Below are positions 7,672 to 59,950 of a DNA stretch of 60,233 nucleotides, in pieces. The notes beneath the pieces were generated by a model. That model did no database searches. It was not told the origin of the DNA and saw only the letters and a list, made by a program, of their open reading frames with translations. The stretch is from positions 1 through 60,233 of the forward strand of contig JAFUJH010000091.1 of NCBI GenBank assembly GCA_017473775.1, read 5' to 3'. Position 1 is the stretch's first letter. Each line of letters begins with the position of its first letter. Both the position numbers and the translations under genes were made by a program. Source of the DNA: Ruminococcus sp. GTDB lineage: Bacteria > Bacillota > Clostridia > Oscillospirales > Acutalibacteraceae.

Positions 7672-9963
7672 TCAGCCCTTGAGCTTGGCGCGGATAATCT
7701 TGCCTGAGATAGTCTTGGGCAGAGACTCCACAAACTCCACGATTCTGGGATATTTGTAGGGTGCAGTGCGTGTCTTGACATAGCTCTGGATTTCCTTCTT
7801 CAGCTCGTCGGTGCCCGTGGTGCCCTGAGTGAGAACGATGGTAGCTTTGACTACCTGACCTCTTATCTCGTCAGGAGCAGGAGTAACTGCACACTCAAGT
7901 ACATAGGGAAGCTCCATAAGCACAGACTCAATCTCAAAGGGGCCGATGCGGTAGCCTGAGGACTTGATAACATCATCCACACGGCCTACAAACCAGTAGT
8001 TGCCGTCGGTATCTCTCCAAGCAGTATCGCCTGTGTGGTAGAGTCCGTCGTGCCATACCTCGGCGGTACGCTCTTCGTCCATATAATAGCCCATAAACAA
8101 GCCGGCAGGTGCGCCGTCCTTGGTGCGGACACAAATCTCGCCGATGTCACCTGCCTTACAGCTGTTGCCCTCGGAATCAACAATGTCAAGGTCATACAGA
8201 GGACTAGGCTTACCCATAGACCCTACCTTGATGGATGAACCTACAAAGTTACCTATTGTCAGGGTGGTTTCGGTCTGACCGTAGCCCTCCATCAGGCGGA
8301 TGCCTGTAGCCTTGAGGAACTGATGATAAACCTCGGGATTCAGTGCCTCGCCTGCAACGGTTGCGTACTTAACAGAGCTCAGGTCATACTTTGATAAATC
8401 CTGTCTGATAAAGAAGCGGTACATTGTGGGCGGTGCACAGAAGGTTGTGATGTTGTATTTCTTGAACAGAGGCAGAATGTCATCTGCGTCGAATCTGTCA
8501 AAGTCATAGGTGAATACTGCGGTCTCACACAGCCACTGGCCGTAGAGCTTACCCCACAGAGCCTTACCCCAGCCTGTGTCGGAAATAGTGAAGTGCATAC
8601 CATTGGGGTCAACATTATGCCAGTACTTGGCGGTGATGAAGTGACCCAGAGGATACTTGTGGTTGTGTGCGGCAATCTTGGGGTTGCCTGTGGTACCTGA
8701 TGTGAAGAACATAAGCAGGGGGTCGCTGCCGCAGGGGGAATCTGCTGTTCTTTCGTAAACCTTGGGGAAGGACTCAAACTCCTCCTCAAAGCAGTGCCAT
8801 CCCTCACGCTTGCCGTTTACTGATACCTTAACCGTCAGATTAGGGCACTTTGCGGCTGCCTTGTCTGCCTCGTCAGCGGTGTCGCCGTCTGCTGTGCAGA
8901 TGATAGCCTTTACATCTGCCGCCTCAAAGCGGTACTCAAAGTCGTGCTCCTTGAGCAGATTTGTTGCAGGAATTGCCACAGCGCCAATCTTGTGCAGTGC
9001 AAGCATAGAGAACCAGAACTGGTAGTGACGCTTTAAGACCAGCATAACTTTGTCGCCCTTTTTGATTCCCAAGGACTCAAAGTAGTTTGCTGTCTGTGCA
9101 GAGTACTCCTTCATATCTCTGTAGGTGAATACTCTCTCCTGCTTTGTTCTGGAAAGATGCATCATTGCGGTCTTGGTGGGGCATTTCTCTGCCAGACCGT
9201 CAACGATGTCAAAAGCAAAGTTAAATTTATCTGCATCCTTGAAGGTAATGCCTGACAGCTCGCCTTGTTCGTTGGTTGAAGTCTCGATGAACTTCTCGTA
9301 CACGGGCTCCTCAAGGTTTGCAAGGTCGGTGTTAGTGGTAGTAGCGGCTACGACCTTCTCCTCGTAGCTGCTGCCCTCTGCATCGGGGTCGATAACGATT
9401 GCGTAAATCTCGCAATCCTGACCGCCGATTGCAATCTCATCGTGAGGTAGTGAGCTGTCATAGTAGATGCAGTCACCCTCGTGGAGAATCTCTGAGCGGT
9501 CGCCAATCTGAATCTTCATACTGCCCTTGATAACAATATCAAGCTCCTGACCTACATGTGTGCCAAGGTGCATAGGCTTAGACTGTGCCTGCTCGCTGTA
9601 AGGAATTACAACATGGAATGGCTCTGCCATTTTGCCCTTGAACATAGGTGCAAGGTTTGTATACTTAAAACCCTCTCTGCGGACAAAGGGCATACCCTCG
9701 CCCTTTCTTATTAAGGAATACTGGGTCAGAATTGGGCTTGTGCCCTCCATAATATCTGTAATCTCCAGATTAGTAGCATTTGCAAACTTATAGATAAAAG
9801 TAAAGCTGAAATCAGACATACCCGCCTCAAGGTTCAGGTATTCCTCGGTAGTAACGCCTGTTTTCTCTGCCATCTCGGCTGCAGTGTAGCCCAAATCCTC
9901 ACGGACGGATTTAATTCGCCACGCAACCTCTCTGATTTTGTCATCGATTAAACGCTCTGCCAT
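7672..9963 (-). CDS. XRE HTH-cupin-AMP-binding acyl-CoA ligase fusion
   Basis: A 763-residue protein with three parts. Residues about 10-70 form an XRE-type helix-turn-helix (VREDLGYTAAEMAEKTGVTTEEYLNLEAG). About 100-195 form a cupin barrel (HLGTHVGQELDIVIKGSMKIQIGD, YYDSSLPHDE). The rest is an adenylate-forming ligase with FTSGTTGNPKIAAHNH, GYGQTETT, YHTGDTAWRDTDGNYWFVGRVDDVIKSSGYRIGP (split motifs A7-A8) and the C-terminal Lys motif PKTISGKIIRAKL. The ligase part resembles acetyl/medium-chain acyl-CoA synthetases; the acid used cannot be told. HTH-cupin regions usually sense small ligands, so the protein may both bind DNA and activate an acid. The start is the ATG at 9963 with GGAGG at good spacing. 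Upstream is a T-box leader, unusual for this gene type. Confidence 0.9.
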   Translation of the reverse strand: MAERLIDDKIREVAWRIKSVREDLGYTAAEMAEKTGVTTEEYLNLEAGMSDFSFTFIYKFANATNLEITDIMEGTSPILTQYSLIRKGEGMPFVRREGFKYTNLAPMFKGKMAEPFHVVIPYSEQAQSKPMHLGTHVGQELDIVIKGSMKIQIGDRSEILHEGDCIYYDSSLPHDEIAIGGQDCEIYAIVIDPDAEGSSYEEKVVAATTTNTDLANLEEPVYEKFIETSTNEQGELSGITFKDADKFNFAFDIVDGLAEKCPTKTAMMHLSRTKQERVFTYRDMKEYSAQTANYFESLGIKKGDKVMLVLKRHYQFWFSMLALHKIGAVAIPATNLLKEHDFEYRFEAADVKAIICTADGDTADEADKAAAKCPNLTVKVSVNGKREGWHCFEEEFESFPKVYERTADSPCGSDPLLMFFTSGTTGNPKIAAHNHKYPLGHFITAKYWHNVDPNGMHFTISDTGWGKALWGKLYGQWLCETAVFTYDFDRFDADDILPLFKKYNITTFCAPPTMYRFFIRQDLSKYDLSSVKYATVAGEALNPEVYHQFLKATGIRLMEGYGQTETTLTIGNFVGSSIKVGSMGKPSPLYDLDIVDSEGNSCKAGDIGEICVRTKDGAPAGLFMGYYMDEERTAEVWHDGLYHTGDTAWRDTDGNYWFVGRVDDVIKSSGYRIGPFEIESVLMELPYVLECAVTPAPDEIRGQVVKATIVLTQGTTGTDELKKEIQSYVKTRTAPYKYPRIVEFVESLPKTISGKIIRAKLKG

Positions 9964-33258: not shown

Positions 33259-35202
33259 TCAATACTCCAGACCTGCAATGTGCTTCTGGATTGCAGTTGC
33301 ATCTTTGATGTTGATTTCTCCGTCACCGTTCATATCAGCGTTTTTCTTCTGCTGACTTACAAACAGCTCCAAAGAAGCCAGATACTTCTGAATAGCCGTA
33401 GCATCTTTGATGGTTATAACTCCATCCAAATCCGTATCACCTAAAAGCTTGGATACCTCAAGCTCCCCTATTGCTACAAATTCAAATCCGTTTTCAATAG
33501 CATACGCCTCTGCAACAGAGTTGGTGTAACCTTTAATCACAAACCCTTCTACAGGGAAGTGCTCACCGTCGTACTCAGTCTCTCCTTCAACATAGGTATA
33601 GCCTAAAGCAAAGGGATAAATCTCATCAACAGAGGCAGGAATTGTAACCTCTGTAAGCTTCGGACAATTTTCAAAAGCACAGGGACCGATTGCTCTGAGC
33701 TTTTCCGGCAAAACAACAGAGGTAAGTGTCTGCGTTCCATAAAAAGCCTTCTTGCCCACAGACTCTGCTTCATCGGGAATAACCGCATCTGTAATTTCAC
33801 CTTTATATCCCATAAAAGTTCCGTTAAGAACAAGATTTCCTTCTTCTGCCCAACTATACCATTGAGTTCTTTCAAAATCCTCAACCCCGAACATAGTGCT
33901 ACCCTGAGGGAATATTATTTCTTTTACAAGACCACATCTGTCAAATGCCTTGTATCCTATATACTCAACACTTTCGGGAATGACAATTTTTCTTGCATAA
34001 TAACTGTAGTCAAAAGCGTAATCGTCTATTCTTTTGACTGTATCAGGTATTATTATCTCCTGCAGATGGCTTGATTCGTTGTAGGCGTAGGGACCTATCT
34101 CCTCCACGCTTGGGGGCAGGTCCTCAGGATTACAACCAATAGTACCAAAATACAGAATAGTTTTATCTTTATTGAAAATCATATTGTTTTCGGAACTGTA
34201 ATACTTATTATCCTCGTGAACAACAATTTCACTCAGATGCATCGGACAGTCCTTAAAAGCAGTGGGAGAAATATACTCTACACTGGCAGGTATAAACAAC
34301 TTATCAGGACCTGTGCCCGACAAAGCTTCATCACATATCATTTTAATTCCGTCTTTTATTTCCAAGTCAGAATATCTGCCTGTATAGCGGTAATAATGCA
34401 GCATATCTCCAAGATAGCGTGCTCCCCATACAGGCAACTCCTCCCAGCCTGTATCCTCAAAGGCATATCGTGACAAACCCTTTATGCAACCAACAATATT
34501 GATTTGCGTAAGTTTCTTACATTTATAAAAGGCATGATGACCTATGTATTCAACTCCCTCGGGAATATCAACAGACTCAAGCTTTGAACACTCAACAAAA
34601 GCCTCTGCCTCTATTCCGATAAGTCCCTGCGGAAACTTAACAGAAACAATATTATCCGAATATGAGAATGTACCGGGATAAATATATTTTACCCCCTCAG
34701 GGATAACCAGTTCTGTATCGGTTCTGCCGTTAGGATATGCAATTATCACAGAACAGTCCTTGCTGAGAAGGAAACCGTCCTTTGCTGAAAAAACAGTATT
34801 GTCAGGTGAAACCGTAAAACCGGTAAAATTATCTCCTTTAAAAGCTGAAGCACCTATGTGAACAACTTTTTCAGGAATATTGATTGTTGTTACTTTTGTG
34901 TTGTTAAAAGCATAGGCGCCAATATATTCAACCGTGTCAGGGATTGTAATTGTGCTTGCATACGCATTCTCAAAAGCATAGTCACCGATTGCGGCAACTC
35001 TGTAGCCGTTCAATTCAGAAGGAATTACAAGGTCAACAGCACCGCCGTCAATGTATTCTGTAATAATTACAGAATCCTCAGTATACATCTCGTATTCATA
35101 AAACTTGTATCTCAGCGCACCTGCTCCTGTAACCGAAACAGCACATACACCAAAGGCAATTACGAGCACAAGCAAAACACTGACAAACTTTTTTAATTTC
35201 AT
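33259..35202 (-). CDS. Exported BspA-type leucine-rich-repeat protein with dockerin
   Basis: A 647-residue secreted protein. Signal peptide about 1-29. Residues about 50-570 are LRR_5 (BspA/TpLRR) repeats of about 23 residues with the pattern IGxYAFxx, xxIxIPxxVxxIG, for example TITIPDTVEYIGAYAFNNTK and VVLPEKLRAIGPCAFENC. The C-terminus is a type I dockerin, DTDLDGVITIKDATAIQKYL and MNGDGEINIKDATAIQKHIAG. LRR_5 proteins often mediate adhesion; the dockerin would attach it to a cohesin scaffold. It has its own promoter (35251-35280) and GGAGG before the ATG. Confidence 0.92.
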   Translation of the reverse strand: MKLKKFVSVLLVLVIAFGVCAVSVTGAGALRYKFYEYEMYTEDSVIITEYIDGGAVDLVIPSELNGYRVAAIGDYAFENAYASTITIPDTVEYIGAYAFNNTKVTTINIPEKVVHIGASAFKGDNFTGFTVSPDNTVFSAKDGFLLSKDCSVIIAYPNGRTDTELVIPEGVKYIYPGTFSYSDNIVSVKFPQGLIGIEAEAFVECSKLESVDIPEGVEYIGHHAFYKCKKLTQINIVGCIKGLSRYAFEDTGWEELPVWGARYLGDMLHYYRYTGRYSDLEIKDGIKMICDEALSGTGPDKLFIPASVEYISPTAFKDCPMHLSEIVVHEDNKYYSSENNMIFNKDKTILYFGTIGCNPEDLPPSVEEIGPYAYNESSHLQEIIIPDTVKRIDDYAFDYSYYARKIVIPESVEYIGYKAFDRCGLVKEIIFPQGSTMFGVEDFERTQWYSWAEEGNLVLNGTFMGYKGEITDAVIPDEAESVGKKAFYGTQTLTSVVLPEKLRAIGPCAFENCPKLTEVTIPASVDEIYPFALGYTYVEGETEYDGEHFPVEGFVIKGYTNSVAEAYAIENGFEFVAIGELEVSKLLGDTDLDGVITIKDATAIQKYLASLELFVSQQKKNADMNGDGEINIKDATAIQKHIAGLEY

Positions 35203-40919: not shown

Positions 40920-41120
40920 ATTATTATTTTTGACAGATTATGGGTTACTATGGAGAAAAAAGGCGTTACCACATATCAACTGCGTGAAAAATGCGGTATC
41001 GACAGCAAGACCGTCCGCCGACTCAAAGCAAACGAGAACATAGAGACCAAAACACTTTCCAAGCTATGTGCTGTACTCGACTGTAAACTTGAGGACATTG
41101 CAGAATATATCAAAGATTGA
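40920..41120 (+). CDS. Small XRE-like regulator with apparent ATT start
   Basis: A 66-residue Cro/CI-type protein: IIFDRLWVTMEKKGVTTYQL, REKCGIDSKTVRRLKANENI and ETKTLSKLCAVLDCKLEDIA. Members of this family usually begin MII.DRLW. Here the codon in that position is ATT (40920), seven bases after a strong AGGAGGG; no ATG, GTG or TTG lies between the Shine-Dalgarno sequence and the ATG at 40950, which would cut off the first helix (56 residues) and has no ribosome site. So an ATT start, or a recently damaged start codon, is likely. A sequencing error is also possible. Confidence 0.8.
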   Translation: MIIFDRLWVTMEKKGVTTYQLREKCGIDSKTVRRLKANENIETKTLSKLCAVLDCKLEDIAEYIKD

Positions 41121-41162: not shown

Positions 41163-41189
41163 GAACCGAACAAAATATAGAATCGTATA
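41163..41189 (+). promoter_or_regulatory. ECF-type promoter 1, before sigma gene 1
   Basis: GAACC at 41163 and CGTATA at 41184, start-to-start distance 21 bases. Same boxes and the same distance occur at 42855 and 44944. Suggests sigma autoregulation. Confidence 0.7.
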
Positions 41190-41223
41190 TATAGTGAAAG
41201 CTTTCAGAAAAGGATGTACACAG

Positions 41224-41718
41224 ATGAAAACGGATATTTCCGAATACATAAGAATATACGGCAAAGACCTGGGCAGACTCTGCAGTTCTCTGTGTTCTTC
41301 CCGCCACGATGCTGAGGATTTGTACCAGATAACATGGGAGAAGGTCCTCAGGAATATAAGACATTATGATAAAAACAAACCCTTTGACAAATGGCTGTGG
41401 TCTGTGTGCGTGAACGCTCACAAGGATATGCTGAAAAACCCCTTCCGTAAAAGGGTGCTCGCCTTTGATACATCCGAAGAATTGGAGCGGATTCTGAATT
41501 CTGTTCCTGAGAGTGAGCATTGCCGTGATGACTACATAGTCCTGCACAATGCAATAAACAAACTTGACCCCAAAAAACGGCAGGTAATCGCCCTGTACTA
41601 TTTCAAGGATTTCTCAATTGCTGAGCTATCACAGATTCTGGGTATACCTGAAGGAACAGTCAAATCCAGACTAAGCCAAGCCAGAGAACAAATAAGAAAG
41701 GAGCTTAACAATGAGTAA
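41224..41718 (+). CDS. ECF RNA polymerase sigma factor 1
   Basis: A 164-residue extracytoplasmic-function sigma factor. Region 2: DLGRLCSSLCSSRHDAEDLYQITWEKVLRNI and FDKWLWSVCVNAHKDM; region 4: INKLDPKKRQVIALYYFKDFSIAELSQILGIPEGTVKSRLSQARE. The start is ATG 41224 with AAGGATG upstream. It is highly similar to the sigma factor at 43679 (DAEDL.Q.TWEKV.R and GIPEGTVKSRL are identical), a clear duplication. Its end overlaps the next gene, a membrane protein likely to be its anti-sigma factor. Confidence 0.93.
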   Translation: MKTDISEYIRIYGKDLGRLCSSLCSSRHDAEDLYQITWEKVLRNIRHYDKNKPFDKWLWSVCVNAHKDMLKNPFRKRVLAFDTSEELERILNSVPESEHCRDDYIVLHNAINKLDPKKRQVIALYYFKDFSIAELSQILGIPEGTVKSRLSQAREQIRKELNNE

Positions 41719-42748
41719 ATTTTCAGAAGAGCAAACCGACAAAATGCTCAGAACATATCACGCTTGTATGCCCGACACCTACAGTTTCAGAAAACCCCGC
41801 AAGACACATCTTACCTCAGTAATTGCCGCCTGCATTGCAATTCTCCTCATAGCAGGGGTGTGCTTTATTCCGGGTGCACTTTCACACTCAGACTCAGGAT
41901 TTATTATTGTTGCCAACGCTCAGGCCCTTGACGAAGCAGGCATAGCCTCCGCCGACGAGATAACCTCAGATGCCTTTGTAGAAATCAAAAGCGACAGCTA
42001 CCCTATTGTTACCTTTGACTTTGACTGTATCCTTGACCCTGATGCAAAGGAATACGACCTGACACAAAAATATCTGTTTCATGCCGTTACTATGAATCTG
42101 GACTTTGATGTGGTTGGCGAGGATATAGAGACTGTTACCTACAAGACCAACAAAGGTGTTTTTGTACTCTCTTATTCTCCTGAGGGCAAGGACTCCCAAT
42201 GTATTTTTGCAGGCTATGACTCCCCTACCACAGAGTACACTATAGACTACCAAGAGCGTGACAATTATCGCTTTTCCTTCAACCCTGTCTATGATGACAG
42301 CTACACCTATGATTTCATTACAAAATATTACAGCTACGCATACGCAAACCCTGAACAGAATTACTCCCACAGCTTCTGTGATACAGACGAGCTTGTGTAC
42401 TCTGAGGACAGCGGCGACCTCCACGCAAAGTACGGTTGGGTAAGTTCTATCGGTAGCGGATACAGAAGTTCTGCTCCCACAGCCGCCACGGAAGAAGAAA
42501 TAAATGCCCTCAGAGCATATGCCAAGGCTGACGATATGGTAGGCTTCTTTAACTGCCAGAACAAGATTTTTGAGCGGATTATAAACGAAGTTACCATTGA
42601 TATTACCGTCACAAAAACTGACGGCAGTGTTCACACCAAGACCCTTGAACTGTGCTATACTCCCGACGAAATCACCTCTGCCGAAGGCTACCTTGACGAC
42701 CAGACAAGGACCTACTCTACAGGCACAATCAGTGCAAAGCTCAAATAA
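41711..42748 (+). CDS. Putative anti-sigma membrane protein 1
   Basis: A 345-residue protein with a short cytoplasmic N-terminus (1-about 33), one transmembrane helix (about 34-54) and a large extracellular domain rich in Asp, Tyr and Thr. Coupling to the sigma gene (8-base overlap) and topology fit an anti-sigma factor that releases the sigma when an outside signal is sensed; no zinc-binding (ZAS) motif is present. The extracellular part is much longer than in the sister protein at 44166 and matches no domain I recognise. Function is by context. Confidence 0.75.
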   Translation: MSKFSEEQTDKMLRTYHACMPDTYSFRKPRKTHLTSVIAACIAILLIAGVCFIPGALSHSDSGFIIVANAQALDEAGIASADEITSDAFVEIKSDSYPIVTFDFDCILDPDAKEYDLTQKYLFHAVTMNLDFDVVGEDIETVTYKTNKGVFVLSYSPEGKDSQCIFAGYDSPTTEYTIDYQERDNYRFSFNPVYDDSYTYDFITKYYSYAYANPEQNYSHSFCDTDELVYSEDSGDLHAKYGWVSSIGSGYRSSAPTAATEEEINALRAYAKADDMVGFFNCQNKIFERIINEVTIDITVTKTDGSVHTKTLELCYTPDEITSAEGYLDDQTRTYSTGTISAKLK

Positions 42749-42792
42749 ACCCACACACACCTTAGAAAAGACATTGGATTTTCTTTTTTACC

Positions 42793-42830
42793 TTCCCCGA
42801 CAGATTACCTCCTGTCGGGGATTTTCCTTT
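42793..42830 (+). terminator. Terminator after the first sigma pair
   Basis: CCCCGACAG / CTGTCGGGG with loop ATTACCTC and ATTTTCCTTT after it. Same stem and loop as at 44884 and 45972. Confidence 0.85.
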
Positions 42831-42854
42831 GAAAAAATTTTTTGAAAACAAAAT

Positions 42855-42881
42855 GAACAAAACGCTTTCTCAATCCGTATA
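42855..42881 (+). promoter_or_regulatory. ECF-type promoter 2, before the CBM-dockerin gene
   Basis: GAACA at 42855, CGTATA at 42876, identical spacing to the other two sites. About 80 bases upstream of the ATG. Confidence 0.7.
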
Positions 42882-42958
42882 GATAATAGGAGTAAAAAGC
42901 AGAATGTGTAAAGGCACAGCCTGAAAGCTCTTGAAATTAACAGTTTGGAGGAATTATA

Positions 42959-43636
42959 ATGATTAAAAAGCTATTTTGTTTTGTTCTTATTCTTACAACG
43001 ATTGCTTCCTTTGGTATAATCGGCACTTGTGCCACAAACAATTCTGAAGCAGAAAAGCAGATAATCTATTTTGAAATTCCTGAGAGTTGGGAAGGCTACA
43101 GCAAAGTATACTGCCATGTAAGGGAAATGCAAGGTTCTTTTTTGGCAATGTGGGGAAGCAAAAAAACCTTGTGTACACAAACCGACACAGAGGGAATCTA
43201 CGCCTTTGACTTATCAAAGCTCGGCGGCATATCAGAAAACAAATTATATTTTGTTAATTTTCACACCGATGTACCACGGCAAAGACACAGGGAGGCAATC
43301 TTTGGTACTGATTGTCTGGGTGACACCTTATACTGCACCGACAAAATAATTTATTCCCCCGACGACGAGAACCATCCAATGGCTTACTGGAAAAACCAGA
43401 ACCCCACCAAATACGGGTCTTACCTGCCTCGCAACTGGGGAGATGTGGATTTCTCTCTGGAAGTAAACATTAAGGATGCCACTGCAATACAAAAATACAT
43501 TGCCGGCATTCCTACAGGAAAAGACTACATTATTATGCAGGACCCCGACTTTGACTGTGACGGAGTAATAACCATAAAAGATGCCACCGGCATACAGAAG
43601 TACCTTGCAGGAAAACTGAAACTTTTACAGTACTGA
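42959..43636 (+). CDS. Exported carbohydrate-module-like protein with dockerin
   Basis: A 225-residue exported protein. Signal peptide about 1-22. Residues about 32-150 form a module also present in the protein at 45031: IYFEIPESWEGYSKVYCHV, DTEGIYAFDLSKLGG, GTDCLGDTLYC and WKNQNPTKYGSYL. Modules with the YFE(V/I)PxxWxxYxxVYCH pattern are common in extracellular Ruminococcus proteins and look like starch-binding CBMs, though I cannot prove binding. The C-terminus is a compact dockerin: DVDFSLEVNIKDATAIQKYI and DFDCDGVITIKDATGIQKYL. GGAGG precedes the ATG. It shares an operon with the second sigma factor 42 bases downstream. Confidence 0.87.
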   Translation: MIKKLFCFVLILTTIASFGIIGTCATNNSEAEKQIIYFEIPESWEGYSKVYCHVREMQGSFLAMWGSKKTLCTQTDTEGIYAFDLSKLGGISENKLYFVNFHTDVPRQRHREAIFGTDCLGDTLYCTDKIIYSPDDENHPMAYWKNQNPTKYGSYLPRNWGDVDFSLEVNIKDATAIQKYIAGIPTGKDYIIMQDPDFDCDGVITIKDATGIQKYLAGKLKLLQY

Positions 43637-43678
43637 TAACATCTTTTACACTTGTTATTATAGAGAGGAGGTAATGCC

Positions 43679-44173
43679 GTGAATACAGAAATAGCAAATC
43701 TTATTAAAACTTATTCTGCCGACCTGTCACGGCTGTGTACCTCCCTTTGCACCTGCCGACAAGACGCCGAAGACCTTTTCCAGACAACATGGGAGAAGGT
43801 AATCAGAAGCTTTAAAACATACGACAGCACCAGACCCTTTGACAAGTGGTTATGGACTATATGTGTCAACGCCCACAGGGATATGCTCCGAAACCCCTTC
43901 CGCAAGTACAGGCTGAATTTTAACTCAAACGAAGAAATGGAGCAACTGCTCCGCTCCATTCCGGATGCTGACGATAAACGGGATGACTACATAGCCCTGC
44001 ACACCGCCATCAAAAAACTTGACCCGAAGAAAAGACAGGTTATAGCTCTGTATTACTTCGGCGACTTCACTATGGCGGAGCTTTCACAGATACTGGGTAT
44101 ACCCGAGGGTACGGTCAAGTCCCGTCTGTGCAGTGCCAAAGAACAGTTAAGAAAGGAGCTTTTTGATGAATAA
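43679..44173 (+). CDS. ECF RNA polymerase sigma factor 2
   Basis: A 164-residue ECF sigma factor paralogous to the one at 41224 and of equal length. Region 2: DLSRLCTSLCTCRQDAEDLFQTTWEKVIRSF, FDKWLWTICVNAHRDML; region 4: IKKLDPKKRQVIALYYFGDFTMAELSQILGIPEGTVKSRL. The start codon is GTG at 43679, six bases after GAGGAGGT. No separate promoter of either type is visible, so it should be co-transcribed with the CBM-dockerin gene, creating a feed-forward link. Confidence 0.93.
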   Translation: MNTEIANLIKTYSADLSRLCTSLCTCRQDAEDLFQTTWEKVIRSFKTYDSTRPFDKWLWTICVNAHRDMLRNPFRKYRLNFNSNEEMEQLLRSIPDADDKRDDYIALHTAIKKLDPKKRQVIALYYFGDFTMAELSQILGIPEGTVKSRLCSAKEQLRKELFDE

Positions 44174-44867
44174 CAATACAAATGATAAACTGGATGCCAT
44201 GCTGCAGCAGTATTACGGCAGGGAACAGGAGTCCTTTGAGTATAACGAAGCTCCGAAAAAGCGATCCCCCCTCCGCTATACCTCTGCTGTTGCTGCAGTG
44301 TTTGCGATACTTCTTTGTGCAGGACTGCTTCTTTACACCTGTATTACACCTAAAAACGATTTAGTCATAAATGTTGCCGCTCAAGGCACAGAGGAATATA
44401 CAGACCTCAGTGTAAAAACCTTCTACAAAGCTACATTTGACCTTGATTACGCAGGAATCACAGATAAATCAGAAATGCTGACAGCTGGTATCATTGTTGT
44501 CAAAGGAGACAACATTGCTGACATACAGGTTGATTCTCTGTATGACGAAGGAGAATTCCTTATGCCATATGGTCACAATTATTTCCAGTGTCTTGACTCC
44601 GACGGCAATATGAAACCGCATTACGGCACAGACTCAAGACTGGTTCTTATCTGCAGTGAAGAAGAATTCACAGAGGATGAAAAGACCTCCTCCATCTGGT
44701 ATGTGCCTGTTGATGAAAACGGTGAGCCAATCAGTAACAACGAATATATTGCCGAGGAAAAAGCAGATACTGTACAAATGAAGATTTATTTTGAGGACGG
44801 CTCCTGCAACACAAAGCATATATTTATTACCTATAATGAGGGCAAAATGAACATAAAGGCAGAATAA
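44166..44867 (+). CDS. Putative anti-sigma membrane protein 2
   Basis: A 233-residue protein with an N-terminal cytoplasmic part (1-about 35), one transmembrane helix (about 36-57, AAVFAILLCAGLLLYTCI) and an acidic extracellular domain. It overlaps the sigma gene by 8 bases. Layout equals that of the first pair, but the outside domain is shorter and clearly diverged, so the two systems may sense different signals. I use ATG 44166 (AAAGGAG upstream) rather than the TTG just before it. Confidence 0.75.
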   Translation: MNNNTNDKLDAMLQQYYGREQESFEYNEAPKKRSPLRYTSAVAAVFAILLCAGLLLYTCITPKNDLVINVAAQGTEEYTDLSVKTFYKATFDLDYAGITDKSEMLTAGIIVVKGDNIADIQVDSLYDEGEFLMPYGHNYFQCLDSDGNMKPHYGTDSRLVLICSEEEFTEDEKTSSIWYVPVDENGEPISNNEYIAEEKADTVQMKIYFEDGSCNTKHIFITYNEGKMNIKAE

Positions 44868-44883
44868 CCCCCTCTGTCTCTCC

Positions 44884-44921
44884 ACTCCCCGACAGATTAC
44901 CTCCTGTCGGGGAGTTTTTCT
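44884..44921 (+). terminator. Terminator after the second sigma pair
   Basis: ACTCCCCGACAG / CTGTCGGGGAGT followed by TTTTTC; same loop as its sister terminators. Confidence 0.88.
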
Positions 44922-44943
44922 TAGTATTTTTCGGAAATAAAAT

Positions 44944-44970
44944 GAACCAAACCCCTTCTGAAACCGTATA
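44944..44970 (+). promoter_or_regulatory. ECF-type promoter 3, before the exported CBM protein
   Basis: GAACC at 44944 and CGTATA at 44965, again 21 bases start to start. The AATGAAC and CGTATATATAGT surroundings match promoters 1 and 2 closely. Confidence 0.72.
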
Positions 44971-45030
44971 TATAGTAAGAGCCAAAGGTAAACAAGGCTC
45001 CGAAAAATCATACTATCTGGAGGAATTATA

Positions 45031-45897
45031 ATGATTAGAAGAATTCTTTGTCTGGTGCTTTCTCTGCTGACACTGGCAGGGCTCAGCACTCTCTGTACCT
45101 TTGGCGCACAAAGCGACCTTGCAACCACAGGCGTTGAGGGCAAGCTGTATTTTGAAGTTCCCGATGATTGGCACAACTACAAAGTAGTTTACTGCCATAT
45201 CTGGGAGTACGGCTCACCCACTCCCCTTGCACCCTTCCAGTCCAAAAAAGAAAAATGCGTCCTTGAGGCTGACGGCAGATACTCCTACGATGTATCCAAG
45301 GTAGGGGGACTTGAGGCAGGTAAATACTACGGTATGCTTTTCAGTGTGGACACCCTTATGCAGACCTACGACACCATTATGACCACAGACTGCCTTGGGG
45401 ATACTCTGTACTGCAACGACACTATCTACGAGCATCCCCTTGACAGCAACCGCACCTGCCGTGCGGCTTTCTTCAGAAATCAGGACCCTTCAAAGTACGG
45501 TCCTCTGATGCAGATTACATCCATCGGCAATCTTATCGGCACCTGTCTGCCTCCCGATACCACTGCATCTGATTTATTCTCCTCCTTCCTTACAGAGAAG
45601 CTGGAAAACGCCAGAACCTACTCAGGCAAAACAGACCAGAAGATTGTTGACGATATGGCTCAGGGACTTGGACTTTCTCAGAATAGTATCGAGAAGCTCA
45701 TCTCTGACTCAGGTGTAAAGGTAAACTGGCAGAAAGCTCAGTCCGAAGCACCAAAGGCAGACACCGCAATCAAGCCCTCAGCTCCCGGCTCTGTCTCCAC
45801 AGGTCAGGATATGACAATTGTACTTATTGCAGTATGTACAATGTTTTTCTCAGCCGCAGTTATTATTATCGCAACAAAGAAAAGACAGCTCGGCTGA
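45031..45897 (+). CDS. Exported carbohydrate-module-like surface protein
   Basis: A 288-residue surface protein. Signal peptide about 1-26. The module at about 38-160 (LYFEVPDDWHNYKVVYCHIW, DGRYSYDVSKVGG, TTDCLGDTLYC, FFRNQDPSKYGPL) is homologous to the one at 42959. After a helical linker the C-terminus has a Ser/Pro/Ala-rich stretch, STGQD, a transmembrane helix (about 258-280) and KKRQLG. This looks like a sortase-type tail (a degenerate LPxTG, here SVSTGQ) or a plain membrane anchor. Its ECF-type promoter suggests control by one or both nearby sigma factors. Confidence 0.87.
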   Translation: MIRRILCLVLSLLTLAGLSTLCTFGAQSDLATTGVEGKLYFEVPDDWHNYKVVYCHIWEYGSPTPLAPFQSKKEKCVLEADGRYSYDVSKVGGLEAGKYYGMLFSVDTLMQTYDTIMTTDCLGDTLYCNDTIYEHPLDSNRTCRAAFFRNQDPSKYGPLMQITSIGNLIGTCLPPDTTASDLFSSFLTEKLENARTYSGKTDQKIVDDMAQGLGLSQNSIEKLISDSGVKVNWQKAQSEAPKADTAIKPSAPGSVSTGQDMTIVLIAVCTMFFSAAVIIIATKKRQLG

Positions 45898-45971
45898 CAA
45901 CAACTCAAACGCTGACATCAGCGAATCACCCTGAGTCATAAAAGAAAACAGAACAGTTTAATTCAACTGCC

Positions 45972-46012
45972 CTTCCCCGACAGATTACCTCCTGTCGGGG
46001 AAAAATTTTTTA
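45972..46012 (+). terminator. Terminator of the exported CBM protein gene
   Basis: CCCCGACAG / CTGTCGGGG with loop ATTACCTC, followed by AAAAATTTTTTA. Confidence 0.8.
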
Positions 46013-49281: not shown

Positions 49282-52200
49282 TTATGCTTCAACCTTTGTA
49301 TTCTCGCACAGGTCAGAGTATACTACGCGGAGTACATTGTTTGCATCTCTGTACTGTACAAAGCTCTTAGCTATCCATGTGTCGCCATACTGAACGCTGG
49401 GAACAGTTACGGAGTAGCTGCCATCAGCAACGCTGCCTGCAGGAGTTACATACTGAATCACATTGGGATTGATTGTACCTACACCGAAGGTTGATTCAAA
49501 GTAGTTCTCCTTCTTAACAAGAAGTACACCTGTATTCACAACCTTGAAGCCTGCTGCTGTAGTATCCCATGAATAGAATACTGTGTTAGCATCGCCCAGT
49601 GTAGCTGAATCAATGTCAACTGTAGAGATTACCTTATAATCCACAGTCTCGCTCTCAGCAACATAAACTGCGGTGAGCTCTGTGTTCTTGTGGGGATAGA
49701 AGCTGTACTCAGCATTATAGCTGACGATTCTGCCCTTCTCATCCATCCAGTATGCGAACTTCTTGCCGCTTTCTGCAGCGCTTGCGGCAATGGTAGTCTT
49801 CTTATAAGCTGCCAGGTTGTTATCAACACCGCCACCGCCTGAGCTGGTGATTACACCACCATTTATTACAACCTTGAAGTATACATTCTTTACATCCCAC
49901 TTGGTTGTAATGGTAATGCTCTCGCCCTTGCTGAGCTTCTCTGCAATCTCTGCATCTGTGCGATCCCAGCCTGCAAACTTATAGCCGGGGTAATCTGCAA
50001 CTGCAGGGAATGCAATAATATCGTCAGCACCGTAATACTGGATTTCGATAATCTGGTTTGTCTTGTCGTTTCTGAAGGTCACAAGACTCTTGCCCGCTGA
50101 TTCAACGGCATACATTGCAACCAGTACATCGTTACCTGATGTATAGAAGCTGTAGGTTGAATTATTGGAGACAACCTCACCTGTCTTAGCGTTGACCCAA
50201 CCCATAAAGGTGTTATCGTTATTGGTCACAGCCTGTACTGTTATATACTTACCAAATTCTATATTGGAATTCATATACTTGGTACCAACAGGTCTTGATG
50301 TGCCGTTGTCGATGCTCATATTAATGTTGCTACCGCCGGAGGACTTGAGCTCAAGGTAACCTGTTGTGCCTGCAACTGTAGCAGTCTTGCTGTACTGAGC
50401 TACAGCTACAGTGTCAGCAGTGATGCTGCTCAGGTCTACATCCCAGCCTGAGAATGTGTATGTGTAGTATACATCAGTAGGTCTTGTGGGAGTCTCGCCT
50501 GTATAGGTTACGGAGTAGCCTTCCTTAACCTCCTGTGTACCAAGAACAGTACCGTCGTAGTTCTTGAAGGTTACAGTGTGGTATGTTCTGTATGCTGCGT
50601 CTACAGCCTTCTCCTCGGGAAGGTTCATTCCGTTAGCATAGGACTCTGTGCTGGGTGTTGCCACATAGCCGGGGAAGTAGCCAAACTCGTCACGGAGTGT
50701 TTCGTAATTTGCAAATGCCAGTGTGTTGTTAATATCCCAGTTCCACTGCTTCTCAGAATTGGACCACATACGGTCAATCAAGCTGTAGAAGTACTTGCCA
50801 TTAACAGTTGTTTTTGTACCGTCATAATTGTAAGTGTCATCCCAGACACCGTTCCACAACTCAACCTCGGTATTAAGTGACATGTAGTCACACCAGATCA
50901 TAAAGTAACCGCCGCCAAGTTGCTCACTGTCTGTCAGGTTAATTGCTGTTGAATTCCTGTAACCATTGAATCGGCTGGGATTCCACTCGGCATAGGACAA
51001 GTCTTCCTGGTTTCTGTAGAAGGACCACCATGTATTCAAGGGATTACGAGCATCATAGCCCCAAACCCCACTGTTGAGTGCACTGGTACTTGTTGAATCG
51101 AGAATACGCAGAGCGTAGTATGTCCAGTAGTTGAGACCGTTATACATTGTTCTGCCGTCGCTTATCCACGAGGATGTTGACTTATAAGCGGTATTGTCAT
51201 CAGACCAGAATACAATCTCAATGTCCTCATCCAGTTCAGGAGCACCGTCTGTCCAATAACCGGTTCCTGTTCTTTCAATGCAGTCGTTATACATTCTTAC
51301 AGTATAACCCTGTTCCTTAAGAATAGTATTAAGGTTGTTTACATAATTAATAAAGTCTGTGTAAGTCCAAGTGGTAATGTATTCTGCCTCAATCTCATCG
51401 CCACCAATGTTAAACTTGGTAGAACCTGCATACTGCTTGAAGAATGCCGCGATATCGGTATAAAGCGCATAAGAGAACTTTCTTATAGTTTCATTACCAA
51501 TATTAAGTTTGGAGTAGGTGAAGTTTGATACAGTTTCATTACTGTTAAGCATATTGGGCAGAGTATATGTGGTACCCTCATAGTTGAAGGTTTTGCCCTG
51601 ATGATTAGCATAGTAGTTTTTACTAATCCAGTCAACATGTCCGGGAGAATCGAAGGAGGGGATAACCTCGATGTTATATTCCTTAGCTGTATCAAAGATT
51701 TCGATAAGCTCAGATGCGTACAGGTATCTGCCCTGATCAACATCAGGCTTCGAGCCATTCGCTAACTTATTCCAGTACTGAGGCTCAGAACCGCAAACCC
51801 ACGAGAAGTCGTTGCCTGTGGGGCTTGTAAAGTACTCGGGATCCCAGAAGTCTGCACGGAAGCCTACATCCTCAGAGAAGTGTAACTCAATAGCATTGTA
51901 GCCCATCCATGACATTTCTGCAATCATATTGCAGATAAAGTCCTTGGTGAGATACTTTCTTGCTATATCAAGGTGAACTGTACGCTCCTTGGTATCAGGT
52001 GCATCAATCAGTGTGAAGCCCTTGATTGCGTTTGTGCCTGCAGCACGGAAGTGCTTCTGGAGTGTATTAAGAGCATAGAGCATAGCGTCAGAGTTCTTTG
52101 CGTAAATCTTAGCTCTGTCGGTTACTACAATCTTAAAGCCCTCATCGCCGTAGTCGTGGTCGGAACCTATATATGCGATGATGTCGCCCTTAGTTGTGTA

Positions 52201-55200
52201 TTCCTCAAGGCCCCAGACTACATCCATATCACAGCCGCCCCAGGTAATAGTGCTATCCTGAGCATCTGCTGCAAACTGGCGCTGAGCAAGCTGTGCGCTT
52301 TCAATAATATCATCTGCAGGAGCTGTCTTCTCAGAAGCTGTTACGATGTAAATGTTGCTATCCTCAGATATACCGAAGTCAGATGAAGAATCTGCTGTGA
52401 AGCTGTCGTACAGCACACCCATTGCACTGGTGTCTGTACCTGTGATTACTTCTTCCTCGGGTTCTGTAGTGTCTGTGCTGCCTGAGTCATCTGTATCTAC
52501 CTCTGTGTCGGTTGTCATCTGGTCAACCAGGTCGATAAAGTCAACAAACTTAGAGGACTCGAGGGTGTTGCCATTGCTATCAAGAAGTGTGTTGCCAAGC
52601 TCATCGCCGTAGATAACATCGGGAACCTCAGCCTCGTTAAGAGTCAGAAGCTCAAGGCCGTTGTACTTGAGTGTTGTATATGAAGCCATACCTGTGGGAT
52701 CAGTATCAGCAACTCTGAGTACAACCTGATATCTGTCGAGAGTCTCGTCATAGGGACACTCTGTGTAAGGAATTGTGAAGTACTGCTCTGCAGAAGTAAC
52801 TGTAGTTGTCAGAGTCTTCCATACAAGTGCTCCGTCAACCATTGCACCGTACTGAATCTCAGCGTAGAGCTTACCTGTGTTCTGTGAGCCGATGTAGCTG
52901 CCGTAGTCCAGAGCTCTTACTGCAATCTGCATATCGTGTACATCTGTATCCTTCTCGGTTACATAGAATGCAATCGCAGACTTCTCTTTATTTGTGGACT
53001 CAATCATATAAACCTCGTTGTTAGGACCTGCAAGCAGGTAGTCGTTAACGCTGTTTACTGTGTTGTTAGTCCAAGTTGTGTTATGGTCACTGGGGAGAAC
53101 ATTGTTACGGTTCTCAATCCATGTGTTTGTACCGCCGGATACTGTCAGACCGTCTGTATCGCCATACTTGACAGCAAATGCCTGACGCTCAGAGATAAGG
53201 TCTCTGACTTCAGTGAAGGTTGCACCGCTCTCTGTATCGATATAGGCGTCATTCTTACCTGCTGCTACAGTATCTGTGCCGTAGGCCTCAATTTCGTCTA
53301 CCATTACCCAGTACTTCTCAAATGCACCGGGGCCGAACTTAACGCGGATATATCTTGCATCGAAGCTCTCAAGACCCTCTGCAAGCACAAGCTCTGCCCA
53401 ATAAGCTACATCTGCAGTTGAACCTATCTTGAGAGAACCTGCATACTGGAACTTATCATCGAGGCTTGATGCGTAGTAAACCTCAATATATGTGGGGTTG
53501 CCGATGTTTGCTGCATCGTTTGTGGAATAAACATTAGCTCTTACATCGTCAAGGGTGTAAACCTTGCCAAGGTCAAGAGTTATAACACCCTGACCATTTG
53601 CGTCAACATTTTTCTCCTTGTTGAATCCGAGCCAAGTACCTGCTTCCCAGTTGTTGCCTGTAATAGCAACGCCGTCTGTCAGGTCGGTTGTATGTGTATA
53701 TGTGCCTGTATCAACAGTGTAGGTCTTGCCTGCAGCCAGGTTCTCGCGAACAACATCAGCGCTGTTGTCCAGAGGCTGATATACGCGGATACCGTCAATA
53801 CACAGGTAAGAGGTGCTTACAGGAGGTGCCTGAGTCATATCGGTCCAGTTGCTGAAGTCAAAGATGGGAACACCTGAGAGCTCTACCTTATATGTACCGA
53901 ACTCAAGTCCGCTCATTCTGACAATAGGAACAGCCACGATAGTCTCTGTACCGCCGTCGCCGCCGTTATCGAACTCTGTGATAACAGGAACTTTCTTAAT
54001 GAAAGTGCCGTTTGCATCGTAGAGTGAAACCATAAGTGTACCACTGCTCTCAGCGTGGTTATGGCCGATAATCTCAAAGCCTGTACCTGTGAAGGTAAAG
54101 GATGCGAAGGTGTTTGTGTTGTTGATATATACATCGGTCAGTGAAGAACCTGTAATCTCGTCGTTCTCTGAGCCCTGATATGCACTGTCCTGACCATACT
54201 CCTGAGACTGGTCAACGCTCTGTCCAAGGCTGCCTGAGCCGGTACCGTAGTGAGTGATTACATTGCCTGTATTGTAGTTGTAGGTAATACCTGCAAAGTC
54301 ATCCTCGTAGTAAACAACAGATGCAGGAAGAACAGTAATCTTCTTGAACATCTGAACTTCCTTACCGATGTTGATAGCACTGCCCAGTGCTGTGGGCTTA
54401 GAGGAAGTATTGATGTCGGTCTCGTGCACTGTGATTGCCATCCAGAGGTTATACATAGAATCCATAAAGTTTGTGGGAGTAAATGTAAAGCCCTCTGCCT
54501 CTGCATTCTCGCCGTAAAATGAGGTTGCTGTGTAAAGTGTCTTAATAGCAGAATCTGATGTCAATTTATAAGTATTATCATCATTGACAGTGATAAGGTT
54601 ATTACCGCCCATATAGAAGGCAGTGCTTAGGATATCCGGTGTCTGTGCTGAGCCGTTGTTGATAATGAACTTGTTGTAGCCTGCAGCCATTGTGAAGCTG
54701 TAGGTGCCGTCATCGTTCTTTGTAGCAGCCTCGCCGGGCCAGCCGTTATTACCTGTTGCATCGTTCCAGCAGTAAACATTTACATTTTCCCAGCTTGAGG
54801 GAACAGTGATAGTCAGCTTTGTGGTGGTGGCTGCGCTTGCATTGTCGTGTGCTACATTAAACTGGTTGGTCTTGTTAGCAGTCAGAAGGATATCCTGAGT
54901 CTGCTGACCGGCGTTATTATTAACGATAAACTTTGTAGCACCGTCGGGAACTGCCATTGAGTAAGTACCCGCAAGAATAGCATCTACCTTTGTACCGGGC
55001 CATGCTGTACCTACAGCACCGCCGTCGTTGAAGAAGTAGAAGTATACATCGCCCCATGTTTCGTCGTCAACATAAGCGATAACCTTAGTGTTATTCTCAA
55101 TATCGTTAACTGTAATCCAAGTCTCAAGACCGGGAGTAACAGTCAGGTTTTCGGTCTGATTGCCGTTTTTTGTACCATCATTGATGATTACATTCTCAAC

Positions 55201-58200
55201 ATCACCGGGGATACCTTCTACAGTATAAACGCCATCGTCGCCCCTGGTCATTGCAATACCGGGCCACTCAAGACCTGTGTAGCTGGAGTTGCTGTTCCAA
55301 TAGTATATAGCGGCACCCTGCCAATCATCAGGAACAGTTGCGTGGAAGGTAACTGTCTCTGTAGAGCGGGAGGAAACAGCGTTGTAATAGTCAATGCCAA
55401 GCTCCTCATTTGTGCCGGAGGGAGTGTCATTAACTGTAATCCAGGTCTCCTCACCTGCGTAAACTACAAGGTCAGAAGTCTGTTTGCCCTTATCGCCGTT
55501 GTTGATGATAACATTGGTGATATCGCCGGGAAGAGTGTATGTATAATATCCGTTTTCGTCGATTGTCTCAATCTGTACACCGGGCCACGCCTCAAGTCCG
55601 TTGCCGAATGCGTCCCAACAGTAGATGTATACATCGCCCCATCCCTCGGGAACTGCTGCGTGGAGGATACCATCTGCTGTCTTGTAAGTAATGCTTGCAT
55701 TAAGCTTGTTGTTATCATTGAGTGTGCCGTCAATATCAACCCAAGCCTCATAACCGGGATTCAGGTTAATATCAACTGTCTGGTCAGTACCGTTGCTGAT
55801 AATGATATGAGGTACATTACTGGGGATAGCCAGCTCAAAGTTACCATGGCTGGTCATTGTCATAGGTGAACCGGGCCATACATTATCTCTGCCGTCGTCA
55901 TACCAGTAGTAGAGGTACAGATTCTCCCAAGCATAGGGAACATCTGCGTGGATAAGGGTTGTACCTGTATCTGTCAGAGTGTACATTCCTGAGAACTCGT
56001 CATAGTTGATTGACTTACCTGCCTCAGGAATAGCCATATTTGCTGTGTAATAGCCGTCCTCTGTCTGAATCTTGCTGCCACCATCATAGGTAGTAAAGTC
56101 AATTCTGTTATAATCAGTTCCGCCGTCTGTAACATTGAGGTAATCGGGCTCAGTAGTAGAGAAGCCCATCAGCTTTGCCATGGTACCGCTCATTGAGCCG
56201 TACAGCTCGTCGTTCTTGAACAGTTCGCCGTTCTTGTCCAGATTCTCTGTTGTCAGACCATAGTCAAGAACATACTGAGCATCCTCAACATCAGTAACAA
56301 TAACAAGTACACGGACGATAGCATATTCGCCAAGGTTCATTGTGCTGACTACGCCTGATTTACCCTGCAGATACATCAGCAGGTAGAACTCGTAAATACC
56401 GGGGGTATCATAGTTAGTCTTGTAGCCCGATTTACCACTTACATCCTTATAGGAATCAACAAAATCATAGTCAGCGTCTGTCAGCTTGTTGCCCATTCTG
56501 TCTGCAAAGGAAATCGTAATTTTACTCAAATCGCCATTTACTGCATCAAAGAACGCCTTGTAATCGTGGAGCATACTACCTTCGTTGCCTGCCTCAGCAG
56601 TTGCATCATCAAGAATAGTCTTCTCAGGGATGAACAGGTCGTGCTCTGCCCACTGATAGTAGGAGGGGATTGCAGTTACATATACGCGGTGACGAGCCTC
56701 TGAACGGAGGGTCTCGTTACCTGCATCAGTAGTCTTTGACTTGGTAGTAGCAGTTACATAGACGGTGTTCTCGAACATACCTGCTGTTTCCTGGTCGTCG
56801 GTCATAGTGTAGTATATACCCTTGAAGGTAACACTTGAGTCAACCCACAGACCTGAGCCCTGCTGTGTCAGCTCCTCATCAACTGTCTCGTTATCTGTCA
56901 CATCGCTCTGGAGTGTCTTGAGGAATTTTTTAAGTGCTGTGTTATCCGCAAAGTTTACAGTGACGGCATCGTAGTAAACATGAGTACCTGCACCGTCCTC
57001 AACCTTTGTATATGTATGTCCGTTCTGGATATAGTTACCGCCTGTGCTTACCTGCTGGTAACCTGTAATTATCGCCGTCAGGTCCTGAGCGTCAAGGCGC
57101 TCGCCTCGGGCGTCTGTGACAAGATATCCGTTAATATCGTCAAGCTCTGTATCTGTCGTATCATCACCTTTAACCAGCAAGCCGTTGTCAGGAGTAAGAG
57201 ATACACCGATAGCTTCGTCGTTGAAGGTCAGGTTATAGAGCTTTGTGTTACCGATGTTATTCAGCTTGAAGTTGTACTCGATGGGGTCGTCTGCATCAAC
57301 GATTCCGCCGTACTCAATCTGATTTCCGCCCTGATATGCGGTTTTCTCGATACGGAGCTGGGGGTCAGTGATATGCATATTTGTAACAATACGCATGTTT
57401 GCACCGTAGCCGTGACGCTCCATATAGTAGAAGTCGAAGCTTGCAATCTCGCCGTTTTCAAGGTCAAGAGCCTCTGCACGAGCAATTTGTTCCTCTGTGT
57501 AGTCAGCAGGGTTCTTCAGAACTTTGCGTGCCCAGTTAACATAGTCGTTAACATTAAAGGAACAGTTGGAGATGGAGTGACCGCCGCCGATGTCGAGCAC
57601 CAGCTCGCCATTGATGAACAGGTAAACATCATCGTCTCCTTCAAACTCGAAGAACAGTTCATCTTCCTCTGTGTAAACGAACTCACCATTGGAAGCAAGA
57701 ACATAGTTATAGTTTCTGCCGTAATAAGTGCTCTGCTCTGTATCAAAGCTACGCTTACCGTCTTCTCCAAAATAGTAGGAGTCGGTCTGTCCTGCGTATA
57801 TACCCTCAGAATCAACTACAGGCAGGAAGGGGTATCTTGTGGTTCGTGCGTACTCTGCACCTGCGTAGTAGAAAAGGTCCTTTTCATTTACTGTATTCAG
57901 TGATATTGAACCGTCACCGCCTGTGTTGTAGCCGTTGTACTCAACTGCATTCTGAGATGCTGCCTTGTACTGTGCCTGAGTAATAGTTCCTTTAATAAGG
58001 GCATCAAGAGAAGCACCGTTGGAGAAGCCGCCGTCAAATACGAAGGCATCTGTGCCGTTATCAAGTGTTGCACTTGACAGTGTAAGGTAACGGAAGTCGT
58101 CCTGCTCCTGGTTGTAGGAGTTGGAAACAAACAGGTTATGGAGCAGATAGTAAGCCGCATCCATACAGGTTGAGATATAATCGCCGTTAGCAACTGTAAG

Positions 58201-59829: not shown

Positions 59830-59834
59830 AGTCC

Positions 59835-59950
59835 GTACTCCTTTCGATTTGACAACTGCCGATGTTGTCATTGAAGTTTAATCTATGTAAATACTATATA
59901 TAATAATGTATATATAATTATATATAATAAATTATCTTTGAATACATCTT
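59835..59950 (-). promoter_or_regulatory. AT-rich upstream region of the giant gene
   Basis: About 60 bases of alternating TATATAA sequence (59890-59938) with a small inverted repeat ATTATATATA / TATATATAAT. No confident -35/-10 pair and no ECF-type site. A CAACATCGGCAGTTGTCA inverted repeat (GACAAC / GTTGTC, 59850-59872) lies near the ribosome site. Confidence 0.4.

Follow-up and report, generated by a model that had tools for sequence, protein, structure and literature searches.

In Bacillus subtilis, extracytoplasmic function (ECF) sigma factors of the SigW/SigV type recognise promoters with GAAC at -35 and CGTA at -10, direct their own transcription, and pair with membrane anti-sigma factors from which they are freed by proteolysis; their targets are envelope-stress genes. 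Bacteria related to Ruminococcus bromii that degrade resistant starch display starch-binding proteins on their surface. Two described systems stand closest to the locus presented here. According to the portions of the papers on which we draw, SigI/RsgI combines an autoregulated sigma factor with a membrane anti-sigma factor, carbohydrate-related targets at the cell surface and an XAA sequence in the transmembrane helix (PMC4711584, PMC6056542, PMC12203970), and sigma-24C/Rsi24C-GH5 of Clostridium thermocellum, a dockerin-using bacterium, joins a sigma factor to a membrane anti-sigma factor in a proposed sensing and control of polysaccharide machinery, the GH5-like module of Rsi24C being reported to bind crystalline cellulose (PMC3990059, PMC3526467). 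The literature searched, as far as its text was covered, yielded no sigma/anti-sigma control of starch-binding surface proteins of the R. bromii type. Here we describe a locus in a 60,233-nucleotide stretch from Ruminococcus sp. (the window), which is an entire contig (JAFUJH010000091.1) of a 2.46-Mb assembly in 95 contigs that is 94% complete. We consider it highly probable that the three units of the locus form a closed, self-amplifying ECF circuit that has captured duplicated starch-adhesion genes. The organism is a gut-type bacterium, and, judging by protein matches, its genus would be the R. bromii group.

Organization of the locus

Six genes lie on the plus strand within 41163-46002, arranged in three transcription units, P1-sigma1-anti1-T1, P2-CBMd-sigma2-anti2-T2 and P3-CBMs-T3 (Table 1), CBM standing for carbohydrate-binding module. 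An earlier note on the window had described two sister pairs of sigma factor and one-helix membrane protein interleaved with exported proteins; its coordinates hold, but it overlooked three identical 26-nucleotide terminator-like hairpins (42795, 44887 and 45975), one closing each unit. Across the assembly and with up to two mismatches allowed, this hairpin occurs three times in forward orientation, all at the locus, and neither in reverse nor as the control pattern.

The two sigma factors are 164 amino acids long and 65% identical, starting at ATG 41224 and GTG 43679, respectively; a longer reading frame for sigma 1 (GTG 41194) would open at about the expected transcription start, so ATG 41224 is the likely start. 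Both exceed the cut-offs of Pfam Sigma70_r2 and r4_2 and of TIGR02937, and their possession of regions 2 and 4 together with a GAAC/CGT-type, predicted autoregulatory promoter identifies them by sequence as ECF sigma factors. Their next relative in the same genome is only 44% identical (contig C69). In a tree of 50 sigma factors both fall in a clade of 10 (support 98/90) within an inner clade of 19 (89/79). The 61 sigma matches above 130 bits comprise 42 in this tree, 8 more that were scanned (one further locus, L188, was left out as a copy of L140) and 11 whose scores are lower than that of any inner-clade member; neither the tree nor the counts include loci L047-L051, which are copies of genomes already represented. 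A sister species (G015) holds likely orthologues of sigma 1 (90/78) and sigma 2 (100/100), and the duplication of the sigma factors therefore probably predates that species split. In G015 the three units are reordered (sigma1-anti1, CBMs, CBMd-sigma2-anti2) and each keeps its own site. A short reading frame with the look of a helix-turn-helix protein precedes P1 here (window 40950-41120) and the CBMd promoter in G015 (L108), a shift that is a trace of block rearrangement.

Table 1. Positions of the promoter-like sites, genes and hairpins of the locus in the window
Feature	Position	Strand	Evidence
P1, predicted ECF-type promoter (A-rich spacer) of sigma1-anti1	41163..41189	+	GAAC-N17-CGTATA; kept before orthologous sigmas
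sigma 1, ECF sigma factor, 164 aa	41224..41718	+	Exceeds the Pfam cut-offs for Sigma70_r2 and r4_2
anti1, presumed anti-sigma factor 1, 345 aa	41711..42748	+	Position, 8-nt overlap, one transmembrane segment (~residues 35-53)
T1, terminator hairpin	42794..42821	+	
P2, predicted ECF-type promoter (pyrimidine-rich spacer) of CBMd-sigma2-anti2	42855..42881	+	GAAC-N17-CGTATA
CBMd, exported, Sas20d1-like module and dockerin, 225 aa	42959..43636	+	PDB 7raw/7rft match; Dockerin_1 over cut-off
sigma 2, ECF sigma factor, 164 aa, second in operon	43679..44173	+	Pfam; without own site
anti2, presumed anti-sigma factor 2, 233 aa, one transmembrane segment	44166..44867	+	Position, overlap, transmembrane segment
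T2, terminator hairpin	44884..44915	+	
P3, predicted ECF-type promoter (pyrimidine-rich spacer) of CBMs	44944..44970	+	GAAC-N17-CGTATA
CBMs, exported, Sas20d1-like, 288 aa, C-terminal transmembrane segment and basic tail	45031..45897	+	PDB 7raw/7rft match
T3, terminator hairpin	45973..46002	+	

Promoter-like sites and their conservation

The three GAAC/CGTATA sites, proposed earlier to be spaced by exactly 21 bases from start to start, are so spaced (41163/41184, 42855/42876 and 44944/44965), and sigma 2, separated from the CBM-dockerin gene by 42 bp, indeed has no site of its own. Shuffling predicts 0.03 occurrences of the strict motif in the window, which has three. A scan of the assembly, suggested by the earlier note together with the warning that the motif might be scattered at random, found the same three matches, all at the locus, and eight for a reversed control pattern; random spread is thus excluded for the strict motif.

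The site follows the sigma factors through the inner clade. GAAC-N17-CGTA lies 43-68 bp upstream of all 15 sigma genes that stand first in their operon, and the other four of the 19 (sigma 2 here and in G015, and one each in G060 and G064) lie directly behind a CBM gene that bears the site. Among the 50 sigma loci a site with 17-nucleotide spacing is present at 20, spacings of 13-16 and 18-21 together account for 1, and 300 first-order shuffles of the same loci gave a mean of 0.08 sites and a maximum of 1. The strict motif is found at the sigma locus in all 16 relatives compared (18 sites); the other 28 of their 46 strict matches, taken as a total and not one by one, fall at other places, and the control pattern has 62 matches. 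One relative (G099) has five strict matches away from the sigma locus and no control match.

The autoregulated ECF circuit that had been postulated, with both exported genes and sigma 2 as targets, is thus borne out at the level of sequence. Its extension to a wider regulon is not, as the assembly contains no further strict site. Two broader searches of the same genome were tried and set aside: a tight motif with two mismatches recovered just the two CBM sites, and a looser pattern gave nine matches against eight for the control. Six of these looser matches fall beyond the locus, five inside long open reading frames and one (L151, on C42) between genes. The intergenic one is an AAACC...CGTATA-type site with a poor -35 element (AAAC) on the minus strand (8147-8175), about 30 nucleotides before the gene of a 410-amino-acid lipoprotein, itself preceded by the gene of a similar 404-amino-acid lipoprotein.

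Membrane partners

Each sigma gene overlaps the gene of its membrane partner by 8 bases (41711-41718 and 44166-44173), and hydropathy gives each partner the single transmembrane segment that had been ascribed to it. The arrangement is general: at most loci the partner starts 8-14 nucleotides before the sigma gene ends (the nearest start being taken), and in 41 of 41 partners examined the transmembrane segment follows a short first part. Outside the membrane, anti1 has a large domain, and the corresponding domain of anti2 was modelled with moderate confidence (pLDDT 68.8) as a beta-sandwich, without a significant fold match. Neither anti1 nor anti2 matches a Pfam or NCBIfam family, and 19 partners searched against both collections gave no convincing anti-sigma family, the one NCBIfam anti-sigma match being weak (E 0.0047). 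Among 398 genomes sampled from the taxonomic family, few of them of the same genus, the window's own is the one in which the anti1 type was found; comparison by region adds five other species of the genus. The genome of the window also encodes, on the minus strand of C69 (L146, 7939-9544), another anti1-like protein (34% identity), paired with a distant ECF sigma factor (26%).

In C. thermocellum RsgI, as reported in the part of the paper used here, an XAA end in the transmembrane helix is recognised by ClpXP after cleavage by RseP (PMC12203970). A comparable [VILMFAT]AA sequence lies in the transmembrane region of 18 of 19 inner-clade partners as against 7 of 22 outer ones, a likeness that suggests the same proteolytic route, and an M50 protease is present in the genome.

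These proteins nevertheless belong to neither of the two clostridial systems. The proposal that the family differs from SigI/RsgI stands, since SigI lacks region 4, which both sigma factors have, and no RsgI-type model matched any of the 19 partners searched at E up to 0.05 in Pfam or NCBIfam. Membership of the sigma-24C/Rsi24C group was likewise rejected, Pfam searches having found no GH5 match in the partners; unlike Rsi24C, the sensor yielded no glycoside hydrolase (GH) or CBM module, and unlike in the sigma-24C system, the target CBM genes are in the same operon or adjoin it. The NCBIfam models for SigW, SigV, SigM, SigY and SigX remain below cut-off among the best 25 matches of each sigma factor.

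Exported proteins

The YFE.P..W module that the exported proteins were said to share is confirmed by 40% identity over 148 columns (E 2e-31). Both match PDB entries 7RAW and 7RFT (CBMs at E 1.6e-16, CBMd at E 6.8e-11), which represent domain 1 of R. bromii Sas20, described in the portion of the paper used as a CBM26-like sandwich with helices that binds maltotriose (PMC9112005), and by this comparison both qualify as Sas20d1 homologues over the beta-sandwich. Against R. bromii Sas20, RBR_02940 and RBR_09240, as far as that source portrays them, CBMs has the layout of the anchored relative and CBMd resembles a short Sas20 (PMC9112005). Neither protein matches Pfam CBM26. The Sas20d1 residues that contact maltotriose (Y60, W72, Q127, N130, N151, T152, D154 and K157) correspond to W, F, D, M, H, P, D and R in CBMs and to R, W, R, a gap, S, P, D and H in CBMd, so that only D154 is kept in the former and W72 and D154 in the latter; starch binding is therefore plausible for CBMs and uncertain for CBMd. 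Of 161 genomes in the genus, 156 have a match to CBMs, and no relative of it was found in viral contigs.

The dockerin of CBMd exceeds the Dockerin_1 cut-off and the genome has four cohesin matches over cut-off, which by sequence makes CBMd a component of an amylosome or cellulosome type, its pairing with the cell's own cohesins being presumed. CBMs ends in a transmembrane segment and a KKR tail, with STGQ where LPXTG, the canonical sortase sorting motif, would be expected; it matches no anchor model in Pfam, and the genome has six sortase matches over cut-off. The transmembrane segment and basic tail are likely to act as a surface anchor.

Probable promoter exchange among Sas20d1-like genes

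The history of the sites can be followed in the gene family of the exported proteins, taken as the best matches of a longer list with enough upstream sequence: from 81 reading-frame rows, 12 with less than 150 bits or less than 150 bp upstream, none with a site, were dropped, and the remaining 69 rows represent 64 distinct genes, or 63 after removal of a partial copy (L022_6, of L163_0). The ECF site precedes all six sigma-linked genes of these 63 and none of the 57 unlinked ones. The linked genes belong to four species, two being those described here, two in G015 and one each in G060 and G064. Of the unlinked genes, 49 are preceded by sigma-A-like sequence at 9/12 or better, a level that also arises by chance, and 8 have neither kind of site. 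Firmer evidence comes from a subset of 11 unlinked genes, 10 of which are preceded at 76-87 bp by TTGCAG-N17-TATAAT, the eleventh having TTGCAA. In the genome of the window, an anchored paralogue on C20 exceeds the Pfam CBM26 cut-off and has a sigma-A-like site; another relative with such a site, on C93, has no Pfam match and, by eye, two dockerin-like repeats.

A tree of 42 of the CBM genes groups the four anchored ECF-linked members in one clade (100/98), which joins relatives of the sigma-A type (90/96), and the two CBMd genes in a second (100/100). The joining of the anchored clade to sigma-A-type relatives makes a single switch from sigma-A to ECF control the simplest history. The anchored Sas20d1-like genes of L021-L031 have a common upstream TTGCAGTTTTGAAA...TATAAT and, in their 5' leaders, a palindrome such as GACGATATATCGTC or CGAGA..TCTCG. 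One unlinked Sas20d1-like gene (L176, on C66 of G043) follows a distant ECF sigma gene from outside the clade at a distance of about 0.7 kb; it has neither type of site and is a possible second, independent sigma linkage.

Proposed circuit and points against it

In the resting cell, each membrane partner would hold its sigma factor at the membrane. A cue from outside the cell would start a stepwise proteolysis of the partner, with a cut on the outer side, then RseP within the membrane and finally ClpXP, as in the RsgI route, and the freed sigma factor would direct RNA polymerase to the GAAC-N17-CGTATA promoters. P1 and P2 would yield more sigma and anti-sigma factor; P2 would also yield, on the mRNA of sigma 2, the dockerin protein, and P3 the anchored protein, both of them Sas20d1-like and of CBM26 type.

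Several observations weigh against this interpretation. The anti-sigma function of the partners is presumed from position, topology and conservation and not from a family model. Few sigma loci beyond the inner clade have the site (4 of 23 in the outer group, 1 of 8 others, at L058, and 0 of 8 additional loci), the counts across relatives are not independent of one another, and the inner clade itself is moderately supported (89/79). The CBMd gene of G015 has an 11/12 sigma-A-like match upstream as well as the ECF site. As to the closure of the circuit, the lipoprotein gene at L151 is a weak candidate for a possible fourth target, the strict pattern would overlook divergent sites, and targets may be missing since the assembly is incomplete and fragmented.

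Nature of the cue

The cue could be unrelated to glycans. The same circuit would then be a general ECF system for envelope or surface conditions, and the starch-adhesion genes would have been captured by chance of duplication in one lineage, a possibility to which we give only slightly less than an even chance. It is consistent with the fact that 15 of the 19 inner-clade sigma factors are not second behind a CBM gene, 13 of them standing at loci where no Sas20d1-like gene was found in the stretch retrieved, with the setting of the sister-clade pair, by eye, among housekeeping-type genes, and with the observation of linked family genes in four species. The retention of the linkage in both sub-lineages despite rearrangement, and the arrival of two different Sas20d1-like genes under the same kind of site, argue the other way.

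The earlier note had proposed that the system could sense a polysaccharide or its hydrolysis, a proposal that found no support: the outer domains gave no CBM or glycosidase match by sequence, nor did that of anti2, the one used, in fold searches, and the stretch retrieved yielded no Sas20d1-like gene at 13 of the 17 loci of the inner clade. Because of these 13 loci, a cue related to alpha-glucans is kept as a tentative suggestion. Rather doubtful is the fuller picture of a starch-responsive ECF system with an unclassified family of anti-sigma sensors, in which two sister sigma factors with spacer-coded promoter classes would drive inducible, diverged duplicates of starch-adhesion genes, one anchored and one docking, the other copies being left under sigma-A.

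One circuit or two

According to work cited in PMC6056542, as it appears in the part consulted, a T-tract in the spacer tunes the use of ECF promoters in B. subtilis. Here, pyrimidines make up a fraction of 0.25-0.62 of spacer positions 6-13 in six sites of the sigma 1 type and of 0.88-1.0 in six CBM sites; the ranges do not overlap, and the p value of 0.004 is a guide only, the sites being related. At sigma loci, species with only sigma1/anti1 have the first spacer class alone and species with only the CBM-sigma-anti arrangement have the second alone. Spacer composition suggests that P1 is read chiefly by sigma 1, and the other two promoters chiefly by sigma 2.

Alternatively, the two sigma factors could form one hierarchy or shared regulon, both reading all three sites, and not partly insulated circuits, which we judge to have not quite an even chance of being correct. 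The region 4 stretch AELSQILGIPEGTVKSRL is identical in sigma 1 and sigma 2, that around PFDKWLW..CVNAH is nearly so, and the -35 and -10 elements are the same; cross-talk is likely because the -35 recognition segments are nearly identical. Nine sister-clade sites cover both spacer types (0.38-1.0), which makes the split specific to this group and blurs the classes across the wider family. Such sharing sits less easily with the separation of the two ranges here and with the single spacer class found in species that have one type of pair.

Finally, it is very improbable that the GAAC/CGTATA sites are relics of duplicated intergenic DNA and that the genes are read from sigma-A promoters and not by these sigma factors. 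Around P2 and P3, the hairpins and the starts of the genes do consist of repeated sequence, a 44-nucleotide repeat (70%) is common to P1 and P3, and sigma-A-like matches in the region exceed chance (18 found, 9.5 expected), one of them, an 11/12 match, finishing within the start codon of CBMd, where it comes too late for that gene. Yet the elements and their 17-nucleotide spacing persist, with diverging spacers, before 15 sigma operons, 13 of them with no family gene nearby, and none of the 57 unlinked family genes has the site.

Genes around the locus and its counterparts

In two relatives, G045 and G064, a serpin gene adjoins the sigma/anti-sigma pair (L110 and L109; Pfam Serpin, E 2e-82 and 2e-41), and by eye the same holds in G039 and G060 (L111 and L113). 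In G022 (L125), the gene of an exported 741-amino-acid protein behind the pair was considered as a target and rejected, having a terminator-like hairpin in front and no strict site; the protein has a dockerin-like end by eye and no Pfam or PDB match. Elsewhere in the window, the minus strand encodes an exported protein of 3529 amino acids that combines GH20 and PA14 domains with five CBM26 stretches (49282-59871), and a BspA-type leucine-rich-repeat protein whose dockerin exceeds the Pfam cut-off (33259-35202), likely another component of a complex.

Significance

The novelty of the locus is a combination of an unclassified anti-sigma family, targets within the operon and a traceable promoter capture. 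If the fuller picture of a starch-responsive system is correct, it would be the first sensor-regulator for surface proteins of the amylosome type in the literature that we found. The locus supplies a candidate regulator, promoter code and targets within 5 kb. The contrast between a sigma-A site before unlinked genes and an ECF site before linked ones would amount to a natural experiment in the passage of a surface gene from steady to inducible expression, and the sister sigma factors with their two spacer classes bear on how paralogous ECF factors may be insulated from each other.

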